Source of the DNA: Pseudorhodobacter sp. E13
GTDB taxonomy: Bacteria; Pseudomonadota; Alphaproteobacteria; Rhodobacterales; Rhodobacteraceae
Direction: 5' to 3'
Length of the DNA: 64,000 bases
Assembly: GCF_003991405.1 (NCBI RefSeq)
Contig: NZ_RPEN01000155.1
Location: 62,001-126,000, forward strand
Shown: one piece after another, positions 1 through 10,529 of the stretch
Numbering within the stretch: the stretch's first letter is position 1
Layout of the letters: each line of letters opens with the position of its first letter
Notes under the pieces: model-generated
Database searches by the model: none
What the model saw: the letters and a program-made list of their open reading frames with translations, nothing else
What the model was told of the DNA's origin: nothing
Position numbers and translations under genes: made by a program

Positions 1-390
1 GAAACGTTCTTTCTGTATTTTGAAGAAACCGAGCTGTGCCACCGCGCCGCAGCGGCGGGCTATCCCACCGATTATGTGCGCGAAAGTGAAGTGACGCATA
101 TCGGTTCGGTTTCCACCGGTATGAAAACCTGGGCGCGGATGCCGGGCTATTGGTTCGACAGCCGGCTGCATTATTTCACCAAGGTGCATGGCCCGGCCTA
201 TGCCGCGCTTGCCACAATCGCGCTTGTGTTCGGGTCTATGCTCTGGCGTGCGCGCTTGTTGATCCAGCGCAAGGACAGGGGCGACCCGCCGCGCTTTCTT
301 CGCGATCTGATCGTGCATTATGTCCGCAGCGTGTCTGGCCGCGGCCCGCAACATAAAGTGACCCCCGCGCCGCAGCGGGAAGGAGTGTAA
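1..390 (+). CDS. Family-2 glycosyltransferase, C-terminal part (5' end outside window)
   Basis: Open from the first base; 129 residues are visible before the TAA at 388-390. The fragment begins with FFLYFEETELCHR, the acidic motif (usual form YFEDxDLCxR) near the active site of GT2 rhamnosyltransferase-like enzymes. VTHIGSVSTGM follows, matching the conserved VxHxxGxS segment after the catalytic base. A hydrophobic stretch (AYAALATIALVFG) near the C-terminus suggests membrane association. Only one base separates it from the next start codon, so it is probably the upstream member of an operon with the hybrid synthetase, which hints at a polysaccharide or glycoconjugate context. The sugar donor and acceptor cannot be told from the fragment. 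Family call is firm; substrate is unknown. Confidence 0.8.
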   Translation, partial: ETFFLYFEETELCHRAAAAGYPTDYVRESEVTHIGSVSTGMKTWARMPGYWFDSRLHYFTKVHGPAYAALATIALVFGSMLWRARLLIQRKDRGDPPRFLRDLIVHYVRSVSGRGPQHKVTPAPQREGV

Positions 391-391
391 G

Positions 392-3300
392 ATGTCCAAC
401 GCCCTGATTATCGGCAATGAATCCCTGACCATCCAATGCGCCGAGGCGCTGCTGGCGCGCGGCCACAGCATTGCGGCGTTGGTCACGCGGAATGCGGATG
501 TGCGGGCATGGGGGCAGGGCAAGGGCCTGCGGGTGGAGGCGCAGGACCAAGGGCTGGCCGACCGTTTGGCCGGGCTGCGGGTGGATTGGGTGCTGTCCAT
601 CGCCAACCTCAATGTGATCCCGGCAGAGGTGCTGTCACTGGCCGATCAGGCGGTGAACTTCCATGATGGCCCGCTGCCGCGCTATGCGGGTCTGAACGCC
701 CCGATCTGGGCCATACTGAACGGTGAGGCGCAGCACGGTATCACCTGGCACCGCATGGTGGCGGGTGTGGATGAAGGGGCCATTCTGGAACAGCGCCTGT
801 TTGATATCGCGCCGACCGAGACGGCGCTGACGCTGAACACCAAATGCTTTGAAGCCGCGATTGACAGTTTCCCCGCCGTTCTGACAGCGCTGGAAACCAA
901 CGCACCGGGGGTGGCACAAGACCTGTCGCTGCGCAGCGAATATCGCCGCGCAGACCGTCCCGCCGCCGCCGCGCGGTTGGATTTCACCCAAAGTGCCGAA
1001 CAGGGGGCCGCCTTGGTGCGGGGCTTGGATCATGGCAGCTATGCCAACCCGCTCGCCCTGCCCAAGATCGAGGTTGAAGGCCGTATCCTGCTGGTCACAG
1101 AGGCCGAAATCCTGCGCGATGCCAATGGCGTGCCGGGTGCTGTGCTGGAGACGACAGAGGCCGGGCTGGTCGTGGCCTGTGCCAGCGGTGCGCTGCGTCT
1201 GGCTGGGTTGCAGGCGCTGGATGGCGCGGCGGTTTGCCCGAAATCGCTTGGGGCCACGCATCTGCCCAGCCCCGGCGGGCAGGGCCAAGCGATCAGTGCT
1301 GCCATCGCCGCCGCGGCCCCCGTGGAAGGCGCGATGCGCCGGGCCTTGGCCGCGCTTACCCCGCTTGACCTGTTGGAAACGCCGACAGGCGCTGACCCGG
1401 ATTGGCACAGCCTACCGCTGCCACATAGCGCCAGCCCCTTTGCCCATGCCTTGGGCGTGGCACGCGCCTTGGGGCAGCCATCGGTTGATCTGGCGGTGAA
1501 ATCGCCGCAGCAATCGCCCTATCTTTCGGGCTGGTCGCCGCTGCATCTGGCAGCGGATGCCACGCTGGCCAAGGCGCAAGAGCAATTCACCGCCGCATGG
1601 GCCAAAGCCGAAACCGCGCCCGGTTTCGCCATTGACCTGCCGCGCCGCGACCCGGCTTTGGCAGGCTTGCGCACGCCTGCGATCGGGTTGTCCACCACTG
1701 GCCCGGTGACGGGCACCGCGATCACCCTGACCGCAGACGCCTTGCATTTTGACGCCGCCCGCATCACCGCAACCGATGCCGCCGCCTTTGTCGCGCGGCT
1801 GGCAACGCTTGCCAAAGCCCTCGCCACCGCCGACCCGCAAAGCACCTGCGCCGCTTTGCCCATCCTGCCTGCGGCAGAGCGTGACCTGATCCTGAACCAA
1901 TGGAACGCGACCGCTAAAGACTATGACCGCGCGCTGACCGTGCATCAGGCCTTTGAAGCGCAGGTCGCCAAAACCCCGGACGCCCCCGCCGTGGTGTTTG
2001 AAGGCAAGGCCCTGACCTATGCGCAACTGAACACCCGCGCCAACCGCGCCGCCCATGTGCTGATGGGCATGGGGGTGGCGCCCGGCACGCTGGTCGGCCT
2101 TTGCGCCACCCGCTCGCTTGACCTTTTGATCGGCGCCTTGGCGATCTTCAAGGCAGGCGGCGCTTACGTCCCGATGGACCCGGCCTATCCGGCCGACCGG
2201 ATCGCCCTGTTCATCGAAGACAGCGCCGCCCCGGTGATCGTGACCCAAAGCGCGTTGGCCGATGGCCTGCCCACGGGCAGCGCCCAAACCCTGTGCATTG
2301 ATACAGACCCGCGCATTGCCCAAGCGCCGGACACCAACCCCGACAGCGGCGTCACCAGCGCCGATCTGGCCTATATGATCTATACCTCCGGCTCTACCGG
2401 GCGGCCCAAGGGCGTGATGGTCGAACATCGCAATGTCGCCAATTTCTTTGCGGGCATGGATGACCGGATCGACCATTCCGCAGGCGCAGTCTGGCTGGCT
2501 GTTACCTCGCTGTCCTTCGACATTTCGGTGCTGGAACTGTTCTGGACCTTGGCGCGCGGCTTCAAGCTGGTGCTGTCTTCGGATGAAAACCGGGCGCTGG
2601 TATCCTCGGGCACCATTACCTCTGACAAGGGGATGGAATTTTCGATCTATTACTGGGGCAATGACGATGGCGCAGGCCCCAAGAAATACGAAATGCTGCT
2701 GGAAGGCGCGAAATTCGCCGATGCCCATGGCTTCTGCGCGGTCTGGACGCCCGAGCGCCACTTCCACGCCTTTGGTGGCCCCTATCCGAACCCGTCTGTG
2801 ACGGGTGCTGCCGTGGCGGCCGTGACGAAAAACATTGGCGTGCGGGCAGGCTCCTGCGTGGCCCCCTTGCACCATCCGGCCCGTATCGCCGAAGAATGGG
2901 CAGTGATCGACAACCTGACCAACGGGCGCGCGGGCCTTGCGATTGCCAGCGGCTGGCACCCCGATGATTTCGTGCTGCGCCCGGAAAACACACCACCCAA
3001 CAACCGCGATGCGATGTTCCAATCCATCGATCAGGTGCGCCGCCTGTGGCGCGGCGAAACGGTTGATTTCCCCACTGCCAAGGGCGGCAGCTTTGGCGTG
3101 GCCACGCAACCGCGCCCGGTGTCGCGCGAATTGCCGATCTGGGTCACCACCGCCGGCAATCCCGCCACATGGCGCGAAGCCGGCGAGATTGGCGCGAATG
3201 TGCTGACGCACCTGCTGGGCCAATCGGTCGAAGAGGTGGGCGACAAGATCAAGATTTACCACGAGGCTTTGCGCAAGGCAGGCCATGACCCGGCGCATTT

Positions 3301-4942
3301 CACCGTCACCTTGATGCTGCACACCTATATCGCGCGGGACCGAGAGCTTTCGCGCGAAATAGCCCGGGAACCGATGAAAAACTACCTGCGCTCGGCGGCA
3401 GGGCTGATCAAGCAATACGCATGGGCCTTTCCGGCGTTCAAGAAACCGGCAGGGGTGGAAAACCCCATGCAGATTGATCTGCAATCCCTCTCGGATGAAG
3501 AGAATGAGGCCATCCTCGATTTCGCCTTCAAGCGGTATTTCGAAGACTCCGGCCTGTTCGGCACGGTCGAGGATTGCTTGGCCCGTGTCGAAAGCCTGAA
3601 GCGCATTGGCGTGACCGAGGTGGCCTGCCTGATCGACTATGGCATCGCGACCGAAACGGTGATGGAAGGGCTTTACCCGCTGGCCGAGGTGCTGCGCCGC
3701 TCCAACCAATCCGGGCCAGAGGCGCATGATTTCTCCATCGCGGCGCAACTGATCCGGCACAAGGTCACGCATCTGCAATGCACACCCTCGATGGCACGGA
3801 TGATCGCGATGAACGATGACAGCCGCGCCGCGCTGGCCGGGGTGAAAACCCTGATGCTGGGCGGCGAGGCGCTGCCCTCCGCCCTTGTCGAAGACCTGAA
3901 CAAAGCGACCACGGCGCGCATTGAAAACATGTATGGCCCCACGGAAACGACGATCTGGTCCACCACCGAAACCGCAACAGCGGGGCAGGGTGTGGTGAAC
4001 ATCGGCACCCCCATCGCCAATACGCAGGTCTATGTGCTCGATGAGGCGCTGGCCCCCGTGCCCTTGGGCGTGGCAGGCGAACTCTGGATTGGCGGCGATG
4101 GCGTGACGCGCGGCTATTGGCAGCGCGATGACCTGACGGCGGACCGCTTCCGCGACAACCCCTTCCATCCGGGCCGCATGTATCGCACCGGCGATCTGGT
4201 GCGCTGGCGGCCCGATGGTCGGCTCGATTTCCTTGGCCGCGCCGATCATCAGGTCAAACTGCGCGGCTACCGGATCGAGTTGGGCGAGATTGAAACCGTG
4301 CTGGAGGCGCAACCCGGCGTCGCGCAAGCCGTCGTCTTGGCGCGCGAAGATAGCCCCGGCGATCTGCGCCTTGTCGCCTATCTGCGCGGCACTGCCGCCG
4401 AGGCCAGTTTGCGCCCGGCGCTGGAGGCCGCCTTGCCCGCCCATATGGTCCCGCAGCATTTCGTGACAGTTGCGGCGTTCCCCCTGACCCCCAACCGCAA
4501 AGTGGACCGCAAGGCGCTGCCCGCGCCCACCTCGGTCAAGGCACCGCAAGTGGAATCCTATGTCGCTCCAAAAGGCGTGGCCGAGGCGCTGGCGGTGGTC
4601 TGGTCGCGCGTTTTGGGCGTGCCGAAAGTTGGGGCCAAGGATAACTTCTTCGCGCTGGGCGGTCATTCCTTGCTGGCGGTGCAGGCGCATCGCGAAATCC
4701 GGGCAGAACTGGGGGCCGCGAAACTCTCGATCACCGACATTTTCCGCTTCCCGGTGCTCGAGGCGCTCGCCGCCCATATCGAGAAATCGGGCGGCACGGC
4801 ACTCGCCGCCCCTGCAACCGCAACCGCGACCTCAACCGCGACAACTGCACCCGCCACCAATGCTGGGAATGACCGTGCCGAGGCCCGCGCGGATGCCATG
4901 GCCCGCCGCCGCGCCATGCGGGCCGGGCGCGCGGCAAGCTAG
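392..4942 (+). CDS. Hybrid formyltransferase / adenylation-(luciferase-like monooxygenase)-carrier protein synthetase (MupA/Atu3671-type)
   Basis: 1516 residues. Residues 1-190 are a formyl_trans_N domain with the catalytic N89-x-H91 and D127 of 10-formyl-THF enzymes. About 195-300 resembles the formyltransferase C-terminal domain. About 320-500 is linker or a degraded condensation-like region with no HHxxxDG. The adenylation domain starts near 505 with A3 YTSGSTGRPKG (about 662) and SFDISVLELFW. It is interrupted at about 745-1100 by a bacterial luciferase-like (FMN) monooxygenase starting MEFSIYYWG, then resumes with NMYGPTETTIWS, YRTGDLVRW and NRKVDRKALP. The carrier domain has LGGHSLL, with Ser near 1426 as the phosphopantetheine site, followed by an Ala/Thr-rich tail. 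The A-LLM-PCP arrangement is the known natural-product LLM type (mupirocin MupA, Atu3671; TIGR04020). It likely activates an amino acid, holds it on the carrier, oxidises it and formylates something. No thioesterase or complete condensation domain is present. Product unknown. Confidence 0.9.
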   Translation: MSNALIIGNESLTIQCAEALLARGHSIAALVTRNADVRAWGQGKGLRVEAQDQGLADRLAGLRVDWVLSIANLNVIPAEVLSLADQAVNFHDGPLPRYAGLNAPIWAILNGEAQHGITWHRMVAGVDEGAILEQRLFDIAPTETALTLNTKCFEAAIDSFPAVLTALETNAPGVAQDLSLRSEYRRADRPAAAARLDFTQSAEQGAALVRGLDHGSYANPLALPKIEVEGRILLVTEAEILRDANGVPGAVLETTEAGLVVACASGALRLAGLQALDGAAVCPKSLGATHLPSPGGQGQAISAAIAAAAPVEGAMRRALAALTPLDLLETPTGADPDWHSLPLPHSASPFAHALGVARALGQPSVDLAVKSPQQSPYLSGWSPLHLAADATLAKAQEQFTAAWAKAETAPGFAIDLPRRDPALAGLRTPAIGLSTTGPVTGTAITLTADALHFDAARITATDAAAFVARLATLAKALATADPQSTCAALPILPAAERDLILNQWNATAKDYDRALTVHQAFEAQVAKTPDAPAVVFEGKALTYAQLNTRANRAAHVLMGMGVAPGTLVGLCATRSLDLLIGALAIFKAGGAYVPMDPAYPADRIALFIEDSAAPVIVTQSALADGLPTGSAQTLCIDTDPRIAQAPDTNPDSGVTSADLAYMIYTSGSTGRPKGVMVEHRNVANFFAGMDDRIDHSAGAVWLAVTSLSFDISVLELFWTLARGFKLVLSSDENRALVSSGTITSDKGMEFSIYYWGNDDGAGPKKYEMLLEGAKFADAHGFCAVWTPERHFHAFGGPYPNPSVTGAAVAAVTKNIGVRAGSCVAPLHHPARIAEEWAVIDNLTNGRAGLAIASGWHPDDFVLRPENTPPNNRDAMFQSIDQVRRLWRGETVDFPTAKGGSFGVATQPRPVSRELPIWVTTAGNPATWREAGEIGANVLTHLLGQSVEEVGDKIKIYHEALRKAGHDPAHFTVTLMLHTYIARDRELSREIAREPMKNYLRSAAGLIKQYAWAFPAFKKPAGVENPMQIDLQSLSDEENEAILDFAFKRYFEDSGLFGTVEDCLARVESLKRIGVTEVACLIDYGIATETVMEGLYPLAEVLRRSNQSGPEAHDFSIAAQLIRHKVTHLQCTPSMARMIAMNDDSRAALAGVKTLMLGGEALPSALVEDLNKATTARIENMYGPTETTIWSTTETATAGQGVVNIGTPIANTQVYVLDEALAPVPLGVAGELWIGGDGVTRGYWQRDDLTADRFRDNPFHPGRMYRTGDLVRWRPDGRLDFLGRADHQVKLRGYRIELGEIETVLEAQPGVAQAVVLAREDSPGDLRLVAYLRGTAAEASLRPALEAALPAHMVPQHFVTVAAFPLTPNRKVDRKALPAPTSVKAPQVESYVAPKGVAEALAVVWSRVLGVPKVGAKDNFFALGGHSLLAVQAHREIRAELGAAKLSITDIFRFPVLEALAAHIEKSGGTALAAPATATATSTATTAPATNAGNDRAEARADAMARRRAMRAGRAAS

Positions 4943-5586
4943 TGACCAACCTCCCGGCCCTGCTTGCCGCCGCCCGCCGCCTTGCCCCGGCGGGCATCGC
5001 TTGGGCGGTGGCAGACCCAACCGCACCCGCGCCGCCCCTTTGGCCGGGGGAAGACATCGGCAAAGCCGTTCCTGCCCGCGCCATGGAATTCGCCGCAGGC
5101 CGCGCCGCCGCCCGCGAAGCCCTTGCTGCCTTGGGCGCGCCCCTTGCCGCCATCCCGCACGGCCCCGACCGCGCGCCGGTCTGGCCGCAGGGCATCAGCG
5201 GCAGCCTGACCCATAGCGCCAGCGCCTGCCTTGCCGCTGTCACCCCTGTGCCACGCTTGATCGGCATCGACCTAGAGCCTAACACCCCACTCGCACCCGA
5301 CCTGTGGGAAACCGTGCTGCTGCCCGCCGAACAGGCGAACCTTCTGTCCAGCCCCAGCCCCGGCCTGCTGGCCAAACACATTTTTTCCGCCAAGGAAGCC
5401 GCCTATAAGGCGCAATACCAACGCTCCCAAACCCTGTTTGATTTCCACGCGCTGGAAGTCACCTTTCGTGAAACCACCTTCACCGCCGGCTTCACCCAAT
5501 CAGTGCCGGGCTTTGCCAAAGATGCGCAGCTTCACGGGCATATCTGCGAGGCCCAAGGCCATATCCTCGCCCTCGCCATCGCCTGA
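4942..5586 (+). CDS. 4'-phosphopantetheinyl transferase (EntD/Sfp superfamily)
   Basis: 214 residues. It transfers phosphopantetheine from CoA to the serine of an apo carrier protein. The Mg-binding motif GIDLEPN (D110, E112), FSAKEAAYK (K151, E152) and the upstream SLTHSASACLAAV segment with its histidine are all present, in the order typical of EntD-like enzymes. The GTG start at 4942 shares one base with the TAG stop of the hybrid synthetase (TAGTG), so translation is probably coupled, and the carrier domain of that protein is the obvious substrate. The gene is followed by the 84-bp hairpin repeat and a convergent response regulator gene. Length is normal for the family. Confidence 0.93.
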   Translation: MTNLPALLAAARRLAPAGIAWAVADPTAPAPPLWPGEDIGKAVPARAMEFAAGRAAAREALAALGAPLAAIPHGPDRAPVWPQGISGSLTHSASACLAAVTPVPRLIGIDLEPNTPLAPDLWETVLLPAEQANLLSSPSPGLLAKHIFSAKEAAYKAQYQRSQTLFDFHALEVTFRETTFTAGFTQSVPGFAKDAQLHGHICEAQGHILALAIA

Positions 5587-5696: not shown

Positions 5697-6407
5697 CTAT
5701 TCCCAGATGACATCGCCCAAAAAGATATAGCCCGCACCATAGATCGTCTTGATCAGCAACGGGTTTTTCGGGTCCTCGCCCAGCTTGGTGCGCAAGCGGC
5801 TGATGCGCACATCCATCGCCCGGTCAAAACTGTCCCCCGCAGCACCCCCAAGGCTCGTTTGCATCTGTGCCCGCGAAATCAGCCGCTTGGGCGCGTCCAG
5901 AAACAGGCGCAAGACCTCACCCTCGGCATGGGAAAACGGCACCTCATGGCCTGCCTCATCCACCAATAGATAGCGGTCGAAAAGCGCGGTCCAGCCATTG
6001 AATCGCGCCACCTGTGCCTGACGTTCCGCCCCGCTGCGGCCCTTGCGCAGCCGTGCGCGCACCCGGGCCACCACTTCGGCCGGATCAAAGGGCTTGATGA
6101 TGTAGTCATCGGCCCCAAGCTCCAGCCCCGTCACCCGGTCCTGCACCTGCGCGCGACCCGAAATGATGATGATAGCCGCCCCGGACTCCAGCGCCAGGCG
6201 ATGCACCACCGCCAGCCCATCGCGGTCCGGCAGCCCCAGATCAACCAGACACACATCCGGCGTCACCCGGTTCAGCGCCGCTTCAAACTCTGTCGCCCGC
6301 GCAAAGGCCGCACAGCGAAAGCCCGCCTCCTCCAGCGCGTCCTGCAACATGCGGCGGATTTCCGGCTCATCATCCAGAATGGCGATCAGGGGGGGCTTTA
6401 CACTCAT
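5697..6407 (-). CDS. OmpR/PhoB-family response regulator
   Basis: 236 residues. The receiver domain (about 5-120) has the acidic pair D12-D13, phosphoacceptor D56 in CLVDLGLPD and K105 in IIKPFDP. A winged-helix DNA-binding domain (about 130-233) ends with the typical VRISRLRTKLG and LIKTIYGAGYIF segments. The ATG at 6405-6407 overlaps the stop of the kinase gene by four bases (ATGA), so kinase and regulator are co-translated. The pair is transcribed away from the acyl-CoA synthetase/ABC transporter operon starting at 8565, which makes that operon a natural target; this is inferred from position only. Confidence 0.95.
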   Translation of the reverse strand: MSVKPPLIAILDDEPEIRRMLQDALEEAGFRCAAFARATEFEAALNRVTPDVCLVDLGLPDRDGLAVVHRLALESGAAIIIISGRAQVQDRVTGLELGADDYIIKPFDPAEVVARVRARLRKGRSGAERQAQVARFNGWTALFDRYLLVDEAGHEVPFSHAEGEVLRLFLDAPKRLISRAQMQTSLGGAAGDSFDRAMDVRISRLRTKLGEDPKNPLLIKTIYGAGYIFLGDVIWE

Positions 6408-8362
6408 GTTTGTCCACGCATCAAAAAGGCCGCAAGCTGGCTTGCGTCAAAGGGTTTGGCCAACAGGGGAAATCGCGCCTCCCCCCGCAAGCGCAGCGGC
6501 GCCGAGGCAGGCAGCGAGGTCATCAGAAACCCACGCAGCGGCGGATGGCTTGTCGCCAGTTTTTCCAGCATTTCGACCCCGTTCATTTGGCCCGGCAAGG
6601 AAATATCGCTCAGCACGATCTCAACCCCCGGCAGCGTGGCAAGGCTCAGCCCTTCATCGGTGCTGGCGGCCTCGATCACCGAATGGCCCAGACCGCGCAG
6701 CATTTCGCGCACGTTTTCGCGGATGTCGGGATTGTCCTCGACCAGCAGCACCATCTTTGGCGTGGCATCCGGGGTCGCCCGGCGCAAGGGCAGGCGCAGC
6801 GTCACCCGCCCGCCGCCTGCATCACGATTGGCCAGCCGCACCGTGCCACCCGCAAGCGTCACCTGATCATAAACCATCGCCAGCCCAAGGCCGGACCCTT
6901 CGCCGCCTTTGGTGGTGAAAAACGGGTCCAACCCATGCGCCAGTGCTTCTTCGCTAAAGCCGGGGCCATCATCTTCGACCACAATCTCCAGCCAGGTGTC
7001 GCGCAGGTTGCGCGCGGTCAGGGTAATCTTGCCGGGCCGAGCGCCCCCGGCTTGGCCCACCATCGCATCGCGGGCATTCAGGATCAGGTTGACCAGCGCA
7101 TCCTGCAACATGCCCGCATCCAGCCGCAATGGCGCCTCCAGCCCTTCGCGCTGCATCCATAGCTGGATGTGATCGGGCAAGATCGGTTCTGACAGCGCCG
7201 CCAGATCGGCCAGAAACTGCGGCATCGCGGTGACGACCGGTTTCAATTCGCGCTTGCCCGAAATCCCGGCGATCCGGTCCAGCAACGTGCCGCCCCGCCG
7301 CGCGGCGGCAAGGGTGGCGGCCACCAGACCTTGCGCGCCTTCGGGCAGGGCCAGCCGTTCCAGCCGCCCTTGCAGGCCCAGAATGATGGTCAGAAGATTG
7401 GCGAAATCATGCGCCAGCCCGCTGGTCAGTTGTGCTGCCAACTCCCGCTTGCGGGTTTGCATCAGTGCTGACCGCGCCTGCACCTCCTCGGTCACATCCA
7501 TTGACAAGATGTAAACACCGTTGATCGGCCCGCCATCGGTCTGATCGGGGGTAAAGGCCGCCCGGATGCGCCGCCCGCTTTCATCATCGGCAAATTCGAA
7601 AACCGAGGCTTCGCCCTCCAGTGCGCGATGCAGATAGGCCGCGATTTTCTCAAAGGTGGCTGCACCCAGCGCCTCGCGCCCGGTCAGGCCCAGAATGCTT
7701 TGCGGCCGCCCCGGACCGGGCATCACCGAAGACAGCCTGCGGTTGGAATAGGTGTAGCGCAGATCGCGGCCCACATGGGCGATATGGGCGGGCATCATTT
7801 CGGTGGTCAGGCGGGTGCGGGCCTCCATCTCGGTCAATTCGCGCTTGGTTTCTTCCAGCGCGGCATTGGTCGCGGCAAGCTGTCGGTTGGCTTGGCTCAG
7901 CCGTTCGGCATTGGCCAGAACCTGCTCTGACAACTCCTCGGACCGGGCGCGCAACAGCCCCTCTTGCAGCTTGATTTCGGTGATATCGGTGTAAACCGTG
8001 ACCCAACCACCTTGGGCCAGCGGCGCGCCTTCCACCGAAATCCAGCGCCCGCCGGGGCGCATCCGTTCCATGTAATGCGGCTGAAAGGCGCGGGCGGCCT
8101 CTACCCGTGCGGCCACGGCGGCCTCTACATCCTCTACCGTGCCATATTCGCCGCGCGCCACCAGAAACCGTATCGTATCTTCGAAGGCCGCACCGGGTTC
8201 AGACAGTTCCGGCGGCAAGCTGAACATTTCCGAAAAGCGGCGATTGCAGACGGCCAGCCGCAAATCGCTGTCATAGATCGACAGCGCCTGCTGAATAAGG
8301 TTCAGCCCGGCGGCAGTCATGGCGGCGGTCATCGCGGGGCGGGCGTCTTGGGTCGGGGCCAT
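6404..8362 (-). CDS. Hybrid sensor histidine kinase with two PAS domains and a C-terminal receiver
   Basis: 652 residues from the ATG at 8362, chosen because GAGGAG lies seven bases upstream; an ATG at 8395 is in frame but has no SD. A PAS domain near the N-terminus (SIYDSDLRLAVCNRRFSEMF), a coiled-coil linker, and a second PAS domain (HVGRDLRYTYSNRR) come first. The histidine region GLAHDFANLL follows, then an ATPase domain with N box LVNLILNARDAM, G1 VVEDDGPGFSEE and G2 KGGEGSGLGLAMV. The receiver domain starts VLLVEDNPDIREN with SDISLPG. There is no transmembrane segment, so it should be cytoplasmic. It is coupled to the downstream response regulator. The signal is unknown; PAS domains may bind a small molecule or report redox state. 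Confidence 0.92.
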   Translation of the reverse strand: MAPTQDARPAMTAAMTAAGLNLIQQALSIYDSDLRLAVCNRRFSEMFSLPPELSEPGAAFEDTIRFLVARGEYGTVEDVEAAVAARVEAARAFQPHYMERMRPGGRWISVEGAPLAQGGWVTVYTDITEIKLQEGLLRARSEELSEQVLANAERLSQANRQLAATNAALEETKRELTEMEARTRLTTEMMPAHIAHVGRDLRYTYSNRRLSSVMPGPGRPQSILGLTGREALGAATFEKIAAYLHRALEGEASVFEFADDESGRRIRAAFTPDQTDGGPINGVYILSMDVTEEVQARSALMQTRKRELAAQLTSGLAHDFANLLTIILGLQGRLERLALPEGAQGLVAATLAAARRGGTLLDRIAGISGKRELKPVVTAMPQFLADLAALSEPILPDHIQLWMQREGLEAPLRLDAGMLQDALVNLILNARDAMVGQAGGARPGKITLTARNLRDTWLEIVVEDDGPGFSEEALAHGLDPFFTTKGGEGSGLGLAMVYDQVTLAGGTVRLANRDAGGGRVTLRLPLRRATPDATPKMVLLVEDNPDIRENVREMLRGLGHSVIEAASTDEGLSLATLPGVEIVLSDISLPGQMNGVEMLEKLATSHPPLRGFLMTSLPASAPLRLRGEARFPLLAKPFDASQLAAFLMRGQT

Positions 8363-8431
8363 CTGCGTCTCCTCGCTGTCTTGGCTATCACCCATGGGGC
8401 GGCGGTGAAAAGGCGCAATCGGGGCCTGTTA

Positions 8432-8447
8432 CAATTCGAAAGAATTG
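8432..8447. promoter_or_regulatory. Perfect inverted repeat in the divergent kinase/acyl-CoA synthetase promoter region
   Basis: CAATTCGAAAGAATTG is a 6-bp perfect inverted repeat around GAAA. It lies in the 202-bp gap between the divergent genes starting at 8362 (minus) and 8565 (plus), about 118 bp upstream of the synthetase ATG. It is a plausible operator; the protein that binds it is unknown. Confidence 0.4.
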
Positions 8448-8564
8448 CGAAAAAGTCACGCAAGCATTGCCAACCACCACTAAGGTCAGAACCAACGCGG
8501 CGACAACAGAATCGCCGGGATGGGAAATGACCGGGCCAAGATGGCCTCGATCGGGGAGGATCGA

Positions 8565-10529
8565 ATGACAGTATCAGAGGCGCCCTCCGGCCCGGCCTCC
8601 ATCCCTGCGCTGCTGGCGCGCAATGTGGCCAATCATGGCGACAAACCAGCATATCGCGAAAAAGAATTCGGCATCTGGCAAACCTGGACCTGGGCGCAGG
8701 CCGCGGATGAGATCAACGCCATGGCGATGGGCTTTCTGGCCTTGGGGCTGGCGCCCGGCGACCATGTGGCCATCATCGGCCGCAACCGCCCGCAGCTTTA
8801 CTGGTCGATGGTGGCCGCCCAGATGTGCGGGGCCATTCCGGTGCCGCTGTATCAAGACGCGGTGTCCGAAGAGATGGCCTATGTGCTGGACCATTGCGGC
8901 AGCCGGTTCGTGGTCTGCGGCGATCAGGAACAGGTCGACAAGATCCTCGAAATCGAAGGCAAGGTGCCGCATATCGAGCAGGTGATCTATGTCGACAAGC
9001 GCGGGATGCGGAAATACGACCATTCCCGCATGAACGCGATGGCGGATGTGGTGGCCGAAGGCCGCGCGGGCCATCACCGGTTTGAGGCAGAGCTGGCAAA
9101 GCGCACCGCCGCGCTGGATTACAATTCGACCTGCGTGATGCTTTATACATCAGGCACGACAGGCAAGCCGAAAGGCGTGGTGCTGTCGAACCGCAACATC
9201 ATCGAAACCTCCAAGAATTCGTCAGAATTCGACCATCTGCGCCCGGGGGAGGAGGTTCTGGCCTATCTGCCGATGGCATGGGTTGGCGATTTCATCTTTT
9301 CCATCGGGCAGGCGATGTGGACAGGCTTTTGCGTGAATTGCCCCGAAAGCCCGACCACGATGATGACCGACCTGCGCGAGATCGGGCCAACCTATTACTT
9401 CGCCCCGCCGCGCGTGTTTGAAGGCCAGTTGACCAATGTGATGATCCGCATGGAGGATGCGGGCCGTTTCAAGAAATGGCTGTTTGATAAATACATGGCC
9501 GTGGCCCGCCGCGTTGGCCCCGATATTCTGGATGGCAAACCCGTGTCGGGTGCCGACCGGTTCTCCTATTGGCTGGGCAATATCCTTGTTTATGGCCCGC
9601 TGAAAAACACCCTCGGCTTTTCCCGCGTCCGCGTCGGCTATACCGCCGGTGAGGCAATCGGCCCCGAGATTTTCAGCTTTTACCGCTCGCTCGGGATTAA
9701 CCTGAAACAGCTTTACGGCCAGACAGAGGCATCGGTGTTCATCACCCAGCAGCCCGATGGGCAGGTGCGGGCGGATACCGTGGGCGTGCCAAGCCCGGGG
9801 GTAGAGGTGAAGATTGCCGACAATGGCGAGGTGTTCTACCGCAGCCCCGGCACCTTCGAATCCTACTACAAGAACCCCGAAAGCACGGCGTCCACCAAAG
9901 ATGCCGAAGGCTGGGTTGCCACAGGCGATGCCGGTTTCTTTGAGGAAGGCACCGGCCATCTGCGCATCATCGACCGCGCCAAGGATGTCGGCAAAATGGC
10001 CGATGGCAGCTTGTTCGCCCCGAAATATGTCGAGAACAAGCTGAAATTCTATCCTGCCATTCTGGAGGCCGTGGTGTTTGGCGCCAGCCGTGATTTCTGC
10101 ACCGCCTTCATCAACATCGACCTGACAGCGGTAGGCAATTGGGCAGAACGCAACAACATCGCCTATTCCAGCTATCAGGAATTGTCGCAGCACCCGCGCG
10201 TGCTGGAAATGATCCGCGGCCATGTGGCCGAGGTGAACCAATCCGTTGCCGCCGACCCGATGCTGGCAGGCTGCCAGATTCACCGCTTCCTGATCCTGCA
10301 CAAGGAGTTGGATGCCGATGACGGCGAGATGACCCGCACCCGCAAGGTTCGCCGCAAGGTGATCGAAGAGAAATTCGCCGACCTGATCGCGGCGCTCTAT
10401 GGTGGCAAATCCGAAATCTATACCGAAACCGAAGTCACCTATGAGGATGGTCGCAAAGGCGCGATCAAGGCAACGCTGACGCTGGCCGATGCCGCCGTGG
10501 CACCCGCGCAAAGGATGGCCGCAGAATGA
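8565..10529 (+). CDS. Long-chain-type acyl-CoA synthetase (AMP-forming)
   Basis: 654 residues from ATG 8565, preceded by GGGGAGG five bases upstream; the in-frame ATG at 8520 lacks an SD. It activates a carboxylic acid to its CoA thioester through an acyl-adenylate. The P-loop CVMLYTSGTTGKPKGV, the adenylate motif YGQTEAS and WVATGDAGFFEE (the TGD motif) are present, and the size fits the long-chain (FACL) subgroup. It is the first gene of a long plus-strand operon and overlaps the next gene by ATGA. Sitting with a LIV-type transporter and a second CoA ligase, it probably activates the imported acid. The substrate could be a fatty or an aryl-alkanoic acid; the sequence does not decide. Confidence 0.92.
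   Translation: MTVSEAPSGPASIPALLARNVANHGDKPAYREKEFGIWQTWTWAQAADEINAMAMGFLALGLAPGDHVAIIGRNRPQLYWSMVAAQMCGAIPVPLYQDAVSEEMAYVLDHCGSRFVVCGDQEQVDKILEIEGKVPHIEQVIYVDKRGMRKYDHSRMNAMADVVAEGRAGHHRFEAELAKRTAALDYNSTCVMLYTSGTTGKPKGVVLSNRNIIETSKNSSEFDHLRPGEEVLAYLPMAWVGDFIFSIGQAMWTGFCVNCPESPTTMMTDLREIGPTYYFAPPRVFEGQLTNVMIRMEDAGRFKKWLFDKYMAVARRVGPDILDGKPVSGADRFSYWLGNILVYGPLKNTLGFSRVRVGYTAGEAIGPEIFSFYRSLGINLKQLYGQTEASVFITQQPDGQVRADTVGVPSPGVEVKIADNGEVFYRSPGTFESYYKNPESTASTKDAEGWVATGDAGFFEEGTGHLRIIDRAKDVGKMADGSLFAPKYVENKLKFYPAILEAVVFGASRDFCTAFINIDLTAVGNWAERNNIAYSSYQELSQHPRVLEMIRGHVAEVNQSVAADPMLAGCQIHRFLILHKELDADDGEMTRTRKVRRKVIEEKFADLIAALYGGKSEIYTETEVTYEDGRKGAIKATLTLADAAVAPAQRMAAE

Follow-up and report, generated by a model that had tools for sequence, protein, structure and literature searches.

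What does a nonribosomal peptide synthetase (NRPS) make when it joins a formyltransferase (FT), an adenylation (A) domain split by a monooxygenase and a carrier domain in one chain, and ends there? We asked this of a protein of 1516 amino acids (aa) encoded at one end of a 64,000-nucleotide stretch of Pseudorhodobacter sp. E13 (contig NZ_RPEN01000155.1, positions 62,001 to 126,000; G000:C155:62001-126000), hereafter the window. The original prediction, made from the letters of the window, saw in it a free-standing and self-contained device. By our analysis it forms the loading half of a two-protein line, whose other half is a modular polyketide synthase (PKS) encoded just before the window begins, and the pair sits beside polysaccharide genes in its close relatives. 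The reading we prefer, to which we give an even chance, is that this compact NRPS-PKS line supplies an exopolysaccharide with a small acyl group, whether oxidation falls on the nitrogen or on the alpha carbon of the loaded amino acid.

Architecture of the loading protein

The features at this end of the window all lie on the forward (+) strand:

1..390, +, 3' end of a glycosyltransferase gene (GT2 family, 333 aa, first 612 bases before the window)
392..4942, +, NRPS loading protein, 1516 aa, in the order FT, remnant of a condensation (C) domain, A, luciferase-like monooxygenase (LLM), A, peptidyl carrier protein (PCP); based on an open reading frame (ORF), domain searches and site conservation
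392..1267, +, formyltransferase domain, aa 1-292, of the ArnA/Fmt type; based on Pfam, sites and predicted structure
656-658, 662-664 and 770-772, +, formyltransferase residues N89, H91 and D127
1277..1906, +, linker with the condensation-domain remnant, aa 296-505, recognisable from roughly aa 450 onward only
1934..2626, +, first part of the A domain, aa 515-745, with the A3 and A4 motifs (IYTSGSTGRPKG, FDISVLELFW)
2639..3691, +, LLM dependent on flavin mononucleotide (FMN), inserted in the A domain, aa 750-1100; TIGR04020
3713..4519, +, second part of the A domain, aa 1108-1376, which with the first part gives the code DILQMGMIWK
4586..4780, +, peptidyl carrier domain, aa 1399-1463, phosphopantetheine serine S1426; based on Pfam and the conserved serine
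4871..4939, +, basic C-terminal tail DRAEARADAMARRRAMRAGRAAS; a loose pattern of it fits 74 of 78 rows, the window's own included
4942..5586, +, Sfp/PptT-type 4'-phosphopantetheinyl transferase (PPTase), 214 aa, GTG start, overlapping the NRPS stop by one base

Domain searches against Pfam and NCBIfam bear out the single polypeptide that had been read from the sequence. Pfam places Formyl_trans_N at 48-163, Formyl_trans_C at 193-281, AMP-binding from 521 and PP-binding at 1399-1463. The insert is of the MupA/Atu3671 type, the class to which it had been assigned, and matches TIGR04020 with 488.7 bits against a cut-off of 244.45 over profile positions 1-340 of 341. When the whole genome was searched with that profile, the 1516-aa protein (493.3 bits) was the only match above the cut-off. 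Among solved structures, PuwE (6ket) is the best sequence match of the insert.

The Pfam search found no condensation or thioesterase (TE) domain in the polypeptide, in agreement with the original prediction. A complete condensation domain between the FT and the A domain was considered and rejected, since Pfam has none there and profile comparison recovers only an end: the last part of the linker resembles the end of a condensation domain together with the C-A linker (A3 vs McyB, E 3.4e-10, profile 154-225). A model of aa 1-520 (mean pLDDT 93.4) has the ArnA formyltransferase as its best fold match (Z 26.6, 2.3 A, 282 residues, 30% identity); these comparisons, by Foldseek and structural alignment, covered the formyltransferase part of the model.

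The FT site had been called intact, and conservation upholds the call. Relatives were the best 80 of 165 from a bacterial genome scan (L008-L087), picked by closeness and consisting mostly of Rhodobacterales with Hydrogenophaga and other Burkholderiales records; conservation of sites was judged on the 77 NRPS relatives of at least 1400 aa and the 69 PKS relatives of at least 1900 aa. N89, H91 and D127 and the tested A3, A4, A7 and A8 residues are identical in 77/77, and the carrier serine is S in 76, with one X. On the strength of this invariance we reject a chance ORF, and an inactive formyltransferase or A domain likewise. An FT with its N-H-D site, a complete A domain, a carrier serine and no complete condensation domain are together the parts expected of an NRPS initiation module of the FT-A-PCP kind.

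The gene that follows was correctly recognised as a PPTase overlapping by one base, with 4PPT_N at 75.2 bits (cut-off 27) and ACPS at 47.1 bits (cut-off 25) in Pfam.

The partner polyketide synthase

The missing half of the line lies two genes upstream. A PKS of 2117 aa (C155:55031-61384) ends 616 bp before the first base of the window and carries ketosynthase (KS, 13-390), acyltransferase (AT, 538-809), ketoreductase (KR, 1158-1354), dehydratase (DH, 1380-1651), acyl carrier protein (ACP, 1755-1817) and TE (from 1856) domains in Pfam; with their sites intact, these are the parts of a modular cis-AT type I PKS. It is followed by the GT2 glycosyltransferase (C155:61389-62390, with an in-frame ATG start), the NRPS (from 62392) and the PPTase (from 66942), so that the operon runs PKS-GT-NRPS-PPTase on a single strand with gaps or overlaps of 1-4 bp (GT, glycosyltransferase). 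The basic tail DRAEARADAMARRRAMRAGRAAS of the NRPS may serve as a docking element for the PKS.

This arrangement is strongly conserved. A PKS stands directly upstream, on the same strand, in 73 of the 74 relatives that have room (at least 2.5 kb upstream), and a glycosyltransferase separates it from the NRPS in 72 of them; the glycosyltransferase that had been seen beside the assembly, ending at window position 390, is not incidental. A PPTase follows in 65 of the 74 loci with at least 0.9 kb downstream. The locus that fails the PKS test is that of Hydrogenophaga pseudoflava (L023), where the PKS frame stops early in the assembly, and the ORF-based test for the glycosyltransferase misses L027 on account of a long ORF extension. 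Catalytic residues of the PKS (KS C/H/H, AT S/H, KR K/Y, DH H/D, ACP S, TE S/D/H) are identical in 69/69 relatives, as is KR Ser 1310, the likelier catalytic serine.

These results bear directly on whether the NRPS could work alone, loading, oxidising and formylating an amino acid without a partner. Its own PPTase gene and its lack of a complete C or TE domain speak for such a device. However, a PKS with the missing ketosynthase and thioesterase accompanies it in nearly all loci with room, PKS domains are present in all 11 of the mapped FT-plus-A-LLM loci, and PKS distances track NRPS distances. We consider a self-contained device very improbable. Thus the claim that the protein is free-standing falls, and self-containment with it, while loading, oxidising and formylating an amino acid, or handing it on, would still be its likely job.

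Apparent co-inheritance and distribution

Distances among the NRPS proteins and among the PKS proteins agree closely (Mantel r 0.92 over 70 rows; 0/999 permutations as high, maximum 0.14). Hydrogenophaga is nested within the Rhodobacterales rows in both trees (support 94 for the NRPS, 98 for the PKS); these were quick trees, rooted on chosen outgroup rows, and the PKS tree carries a long-branch warning, with L084 placed with L090. Given this agreement in distances and in the placement of Hydrogenophaga, the NRPS-PKS set appears to move as a unit, and the placement itself points to a transfer of the set.

The nearest NRPS proteins to that of the window are those of Pseudorhodobacter (85-86% identity). 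The FT-linker region was matched in 71 of 198 genomes of the Rhodobacteraceae, one per genus and including the window's own (E 1e-30), and in 20 of 398 genomes across the phylum (E 1e-20); these counts are of that region alone. Two genomes of the family, G126 and G132, have two matches each to the formyltransferase-NRPS region.

Two further placements are of a different kind. The locus of a Curvibacter metagenome-assembled genome (MAG; L016), with its glycosyltransferase upstream of the PKS, is nested inside Rhodobacteraceae by Fuscibacter and apart from Hydrogenophaga, which may reflect transfer or contamination of the bin. An Exiguobacterium profundum MAG (L035, CP059262.1) has a Rhodobacteraceae-like locus (NRPS 64% and PKS 69% identical), and is probably a mislabelled or mixed assembly.

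Association with polysaccharide genes

Upstream of the operon lie genes for a Wzy-like protein, WecG, a GT2, a ParA-like protein, Wzz, a Bac_transf sugar transferase, a GT1 and a GT2. Bac_transf, WecG, GT1, GT2 and Wzz score above their Pfam cut-offs, which supplies the initiating sugar transferase, glycosyltransferases and chain-length protein of a Wzx/Wzy-type cluster; the operon thus lies among genes for an exopolysaccharide.

To compare relatives, we counted eight marker classes, chosen from the genes around the window's operon and in plasmid loci L088-L091. The test is thus circular for the plasmid loci themselves, and it favours close relatives. Among relatives of at least 23 kb, all 65 have one class or more; two or more classes occur in 62, and three or more in 54. 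Of the control stretches of 20 kb, a non-random choice from two contigs of the same genome, 0/16 have any. Across all 80 relatives the corresponding numbers are 73, 69 and 58. The seven marker-free loci (L018, L026, L027, L029, L038, L077 and L081) are all 18.6 kb or shorter, and among the long loci a single class was found in L016, L036 and L084.

The association does not depend on one fixed neighbourhood. Rhodobacterales and Hydrogenophaga usually have the order PKS-GT-NRPS-PPTase, whereas Aminobacter and Shinella have a divergent PKS and still keep polysaccharide genes beside the NRPS-PKS pair; gene order around the pair varies between groups and the link persists. A split form occurs on Deinococcus actinosclerus plasmid CP029777.1 (L182:16029-28014), where a separate FT gene is followed by an A-LLM-PCP protein and then by a PKS with the order KS-AT-KR-DH-ACP-C. 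This PKS terminates in a condensation domain in place of the thioesterase, which would suit amide transfer to an amine. Its neighbours are annotated as CapK, UDP-glucose 6-dehydrogenase, a sugar transferase, a glycosyltransferase and a DegT aminotransferase, and a FemAB/GNAT-like gene precedes the locus.

Could the product instead be a diffusible metabolite, such as a siderophore, signal or toxin, with genes that merely sit in polysaccharide loci or help to regulate them? In favour are the thioesterase at the end of the PKS, the occurrence of formyl-hydroxamates as siderophore groups (according to the accessible part of PMC7347517) and the distant relatives that have both proteins outside polysaccharide clusters. 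Set against these are the polysaccharide genes beside every long relative, the glycosyltransferase inside the operon itself and the persistence of the link through changes of gene order; beside plasmid loci L088-L091, no siderophore receptor or transporter annotation was noticed. On balance we regard a diffusible product as unlikely.

Other genes near the operon deserve mention. An 877-aa protein (L004:138-2768, that is G000:C155:42138-44768, outside the window) has no Pfam family and has relatives in many of these clusters. Its N-terminal part is SGNH-like (Foldseek: DUF4886, carbohydrate esterase family 3, PatB) and its C-terminal part has weak glycosidase-like matches, in a model of moderate quality (pLDDT 72.2); relatives of about 320 aa of the N-terminal part are separate genes in several clusters, Hydrogenophaga included. 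We regard it as a candidate enzyme for adding acyl groups to the polysaccharide or taking them off. On the other side of the operon, at window positions 5697-10529, three genes whose products we take from their translations to be a response regulator, a histidine kinase and an acyl-CoA synthetase have homologues at the same place in L010 and L063.

More distant relatives

Beyond the main clade the pair also occurs apart from polysaccharide genes. In Methylobacterium (L092), FT-A-LLM and PKS are accompanied by one glycosyltransferase at a distance of about 12 kb and by a weak match to BcsQ, and G525 (L185, L186) has A-LLM and PKS with no FT or marker match. The polysaccharide link is therefore a property of the main clade and the Deinococcus locus, and not of the chemistry as such.

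Several loci share only some of these parts. G485 (L183) has an A-embedded LLM within a large NRPS, without an FT or PKS match; in Nostoc (L094) an A-embedded LLM occurs together with PKS domains, with no FT match; and G393 (L149), where an FT at the end of a contig is all that shows, allowed no judgement. A match in Agrobacterium vitis (L096) was set aside: its NRPS/PKS cluster is another system, which includes a 'siderophore biosynthesis protein' and has its LLM apart. The Aliiroseovarius system (L093:13781-27520) lies near VPLPA-CTERM/XrtD genes. Related formyltransferases (about 34-43% identity) are found on plasmids of Bradyrhizobium, Rhizobium, Sinorhizobium, Mesorhizobium and Mycetohabitans, many in genes annotated as NRPS or NRPS/PKS.

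The formyltransferases raise the question of what is formylated. If the FT acted on a nucleotide-activated amino sugar, as ArnA-like and WbkC-like enzymes would, its fusion to the NRPS would amount to co-regulation and the amino acid would stay unformylated. The solved structures closest to the FT domain do include ArnA and sugar N-formyltransferases such as WbkC, the context is one of polysaccharide synthesis, and some clusters encode DegT aminotransferases. Yet methionyl-tRNA formyltransferases tie with ArnA by fold for the model of aa 1-520 (Z 26.1), the related FTs occur in the NRPS-annotated plasmid genes and, in L093 and L145, outside polysaccharide clusters, and FT-A-PCP is a known initiation order, that of LgrA. 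Formylation of a sugar is, in our estimate, improbable.

Substrate and site of oxidation

The A domain of the window has the ten-position code DILQMGMIWK, with positions numbered after GrsA. Positions 235, 236, 239, 278, 301, 331 and 517 are invariant in the 77 NRPS relatives; position 299 is M in 52, F in 14, L in 9 and Y in 2, position 322 is M in 76 and X in one, and position 330 is I in 76 and V in one. A wider alignment took in 31 of 39 LLM loci (L096, L161, L171, L172, L175, L176, L179 and L180 were excluded, their A-domain flanks being insufficient), of which L177 was removed afterwards, its LLM lying outside any A domain. Among the 30 that remain, positions one to nine read DILQxGM(I/V)W in 29 and DMVQLGMVW in L173. 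Outside the main clade the pattern holds in 10 of 11 loci (L092, L093, L094, L097, L155, L156, L157, L168, L173, L174 and L178), and loci with it come from Pseudomonadota, Actinomycetota, Cyanobacteriota and Deinococcota.

In the accessible part of a survey of A domains, the four glycine domains with an embedded monooxygenase (MOX) all have DILQLGMIWK, and every MOX lies within a glycine A domain (PMC12283262). The code of the window differs from this at position 299 only. Because the code is of the type of glycine-plus-MOX domains, glycine is the likely substrate, and the split A domain likely activates it.

The oxygen may go to the nitrogen or to the alpha carbon. N-hydroxy amines can be acylated, typically with formyl-tetrahydrofolate, against over-oxidation, and formylation is found in coelichelin and rhodochelin (accessible part of PMC7347517). 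With glycine as primer, a formyltransferase at hand and this precedent for acylation, we favour N-hydroxylation followed by N-formylation.

A variant, which is not exclusive of the same core, has N-formylation first and then hydroxylation of the alpha carbon of glycine, chemistry for which the MOX domains of MtaG and MelG reportedly offer a precedent. The resulting N-formyl hemiaminal would give an aldehyde (of 4-oxocrotonyl type) or an amido-butenolide decorating the polysaccharide. MOX domains of the MtaG/MelG type reportedly act on a chain-end glycine whose nitrogen lies within the chain; here, in contrast, glycine is the starter and its nitrogen is free until formylated. The LLM is nevertheless of the same family (TIGR04020), and MOX domains in glycine A domains are associated with hydroxylation and then cleavage to a terminal amide (accessible part of PMC12283262). 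On the other hand, the first modules of the necroxime line, with oxygenase, dehydratase and methyltransferase domains, convert a glycine primer to an oxime (accessible part of PMC7318616), a precedent for oxidation of a starter glycine. Taken as a whole, we hold this variant to be rather unlikely. If the core reading holds, our judgement is to place about half of our confidence in the nitrogen and somewhat less than half in the alpha carbon.

A proposed pathway

Taking the loading-module reading, the following sequence of events may be envisaged. The PPTase, as its family suggests, would arm the carrier domains, and the split A domain, going by its code, would load glycine onto the PCP. The inserted FMN monooxygenase would then oxidise the glycyl thioester, more probably on nitrogen than on the alpha carbon, and the N-terminal formyltransferase would formylate that nitrogen to give N-formyl-N-hydroxyglycyl-PCP. 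At this point the PKS would take over, adding one C2 or substituted C2 unit, followed by reduction and dehydration; an example of a product would be a 4-(N-formyl-N-hydroxyamino)but-2-enoyl thioester. Finally, the TE would free the product or pass it to an acceptor, for which the conserved context makes a sugar in the exopolysaccharide of the surrounding cluster the likeliest choice; this sugar may be the one transferred by the glycosyltransferase whose gene separates PKS and NRPS.

Several observations weigh against this reading or against single steps of it. In the cluster of the window, the match of the Wzy-like protein (Wzy_C) is below the Pfam cut-off (25.9 vs 31.7 bits), no Wzx or Wza was seen among the scanned genes, which were not every ORF, and no acyltransferase for attaching the product was clearly identified; Wzx is present in many relatives. 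Aliiroseovarius (L093) and G498 (L145, L146, L188) have FT-A-LLM and PKS with no polysaccharide marker, and G225 (L141, L142, L187) has only one glycosyltransferase, at a distance of about 14 kb, and a weak match to BcsQ. Since such marker-free distant relatives keep both proteins, the chemistry can do without a polysaccharide. In 9 of the 74 relatives with room no PPTase was found downstream, the KR serine at 1309, neighbouring the conserved one, is Ala in 17 of 69 PKS relatives, and the specificity of the AT (motif IAAHS) could not be read. The A-domain survey, in its accessible part, links MOX to hydroxylation and backbone cleavage and not to N-hydroxylation (PMC12283262).

Relation to known systems

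A close precedent for the loading protein is LgrA, the linear gramicidin synthetase, in which FT, A and carrier domains stand in the same order at the start of the line. The FT described here is nearer to ArnA and Fmt (E 5e-18 and 5e-16) than to LgrA (about 2e-4), and unlike LgrA the protein has a monooxygenase in its A domain and a condensation remnant between FT and A, and the line continues into a PKS. In OzmO (oxazolomycin) and conglobatin, a formyltransferase and a glycine A domain load a PKS; these starters are not known to have an embedded LLM or a polysaccharide context. RkpA of Sinorhizobium meliloti, a PKS/FAS-like protein for the K-antigen that is related to fatty acids and lipids, is likewise a multidomain PKS-like protein required for a surface polysaccharide, and is not known to work with an NRPS, FT or LLM.

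Glycine A domains with an embedded MOX, among which we count MtaG/MelG and the lobatamide starter module, share with the present protein both the position of the LLM and a code of DILQxGM type. Those lines, like necroxime, make large secreted polyketides, whereas the line studied here has just two modules and stands among polysaccharide genes. The necroxime line, whose oxygenase may belong to the same family, is also primed with glycine; the word 'formyl' is absent from the accessible text of that paper (PMC7318616).

Orphan clusters have been described in the same taxa. Tritonibacter mobilis AK171 has T1PKS and NRPS-like clusters dissimilar to known ones (PMC11225332), and PKS and NRPS genes are reported in Phaeobacter inhibens (PMC4062626); the accessible parts of these papers describe no FT-A-LLM protein or polysaccharide link.

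The original prediction knew of no product for this assembly. Our literature searches, which subscription papers largely escaped and which are a weak test for that reason, likewise recognised no description of the FT-A-LLM/PKS architecture, its product, its biochemistry or its link to polysaccharide, a silence that also counts against our preferred reading. The domains are all of known kinds; their combination and its location appear to be new.

Implications

As a rule, NRPS-PKS lines are taken to produce secreted natural products. The line described here is tied to polysaccharide genes, and the tie spans Rhodobacterales, Hyphomicrobiales and Burkholderiales, with a split form in a Deinococcus. 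A more daring version of our reading, which we hold to be doubtful, is that the exopolysaccharide of many Rhodobacteraceae, and of Hydrogenophaga by transfer, bears an N-formyl-N-hydroxyamino C4 acid made on this line, a formyl-hydroxamate bound to the polymer, and forms an iron(III)-binding, siderophore-like slime tethered to the cell surface, with the Deinococcus counterpart convergent or ancient.

As a compact two-protein system, the pair lends itself to settling how an A-embedded LLM acts on a starter glycine. If the product is a glycan substituent, an orphan cluster type would become testable by ordinary nuclear magnetic resonance of glycans, and assembly-line chemistry would contribute to the diversity of surface polysaccharides among common aquatic bacteria.

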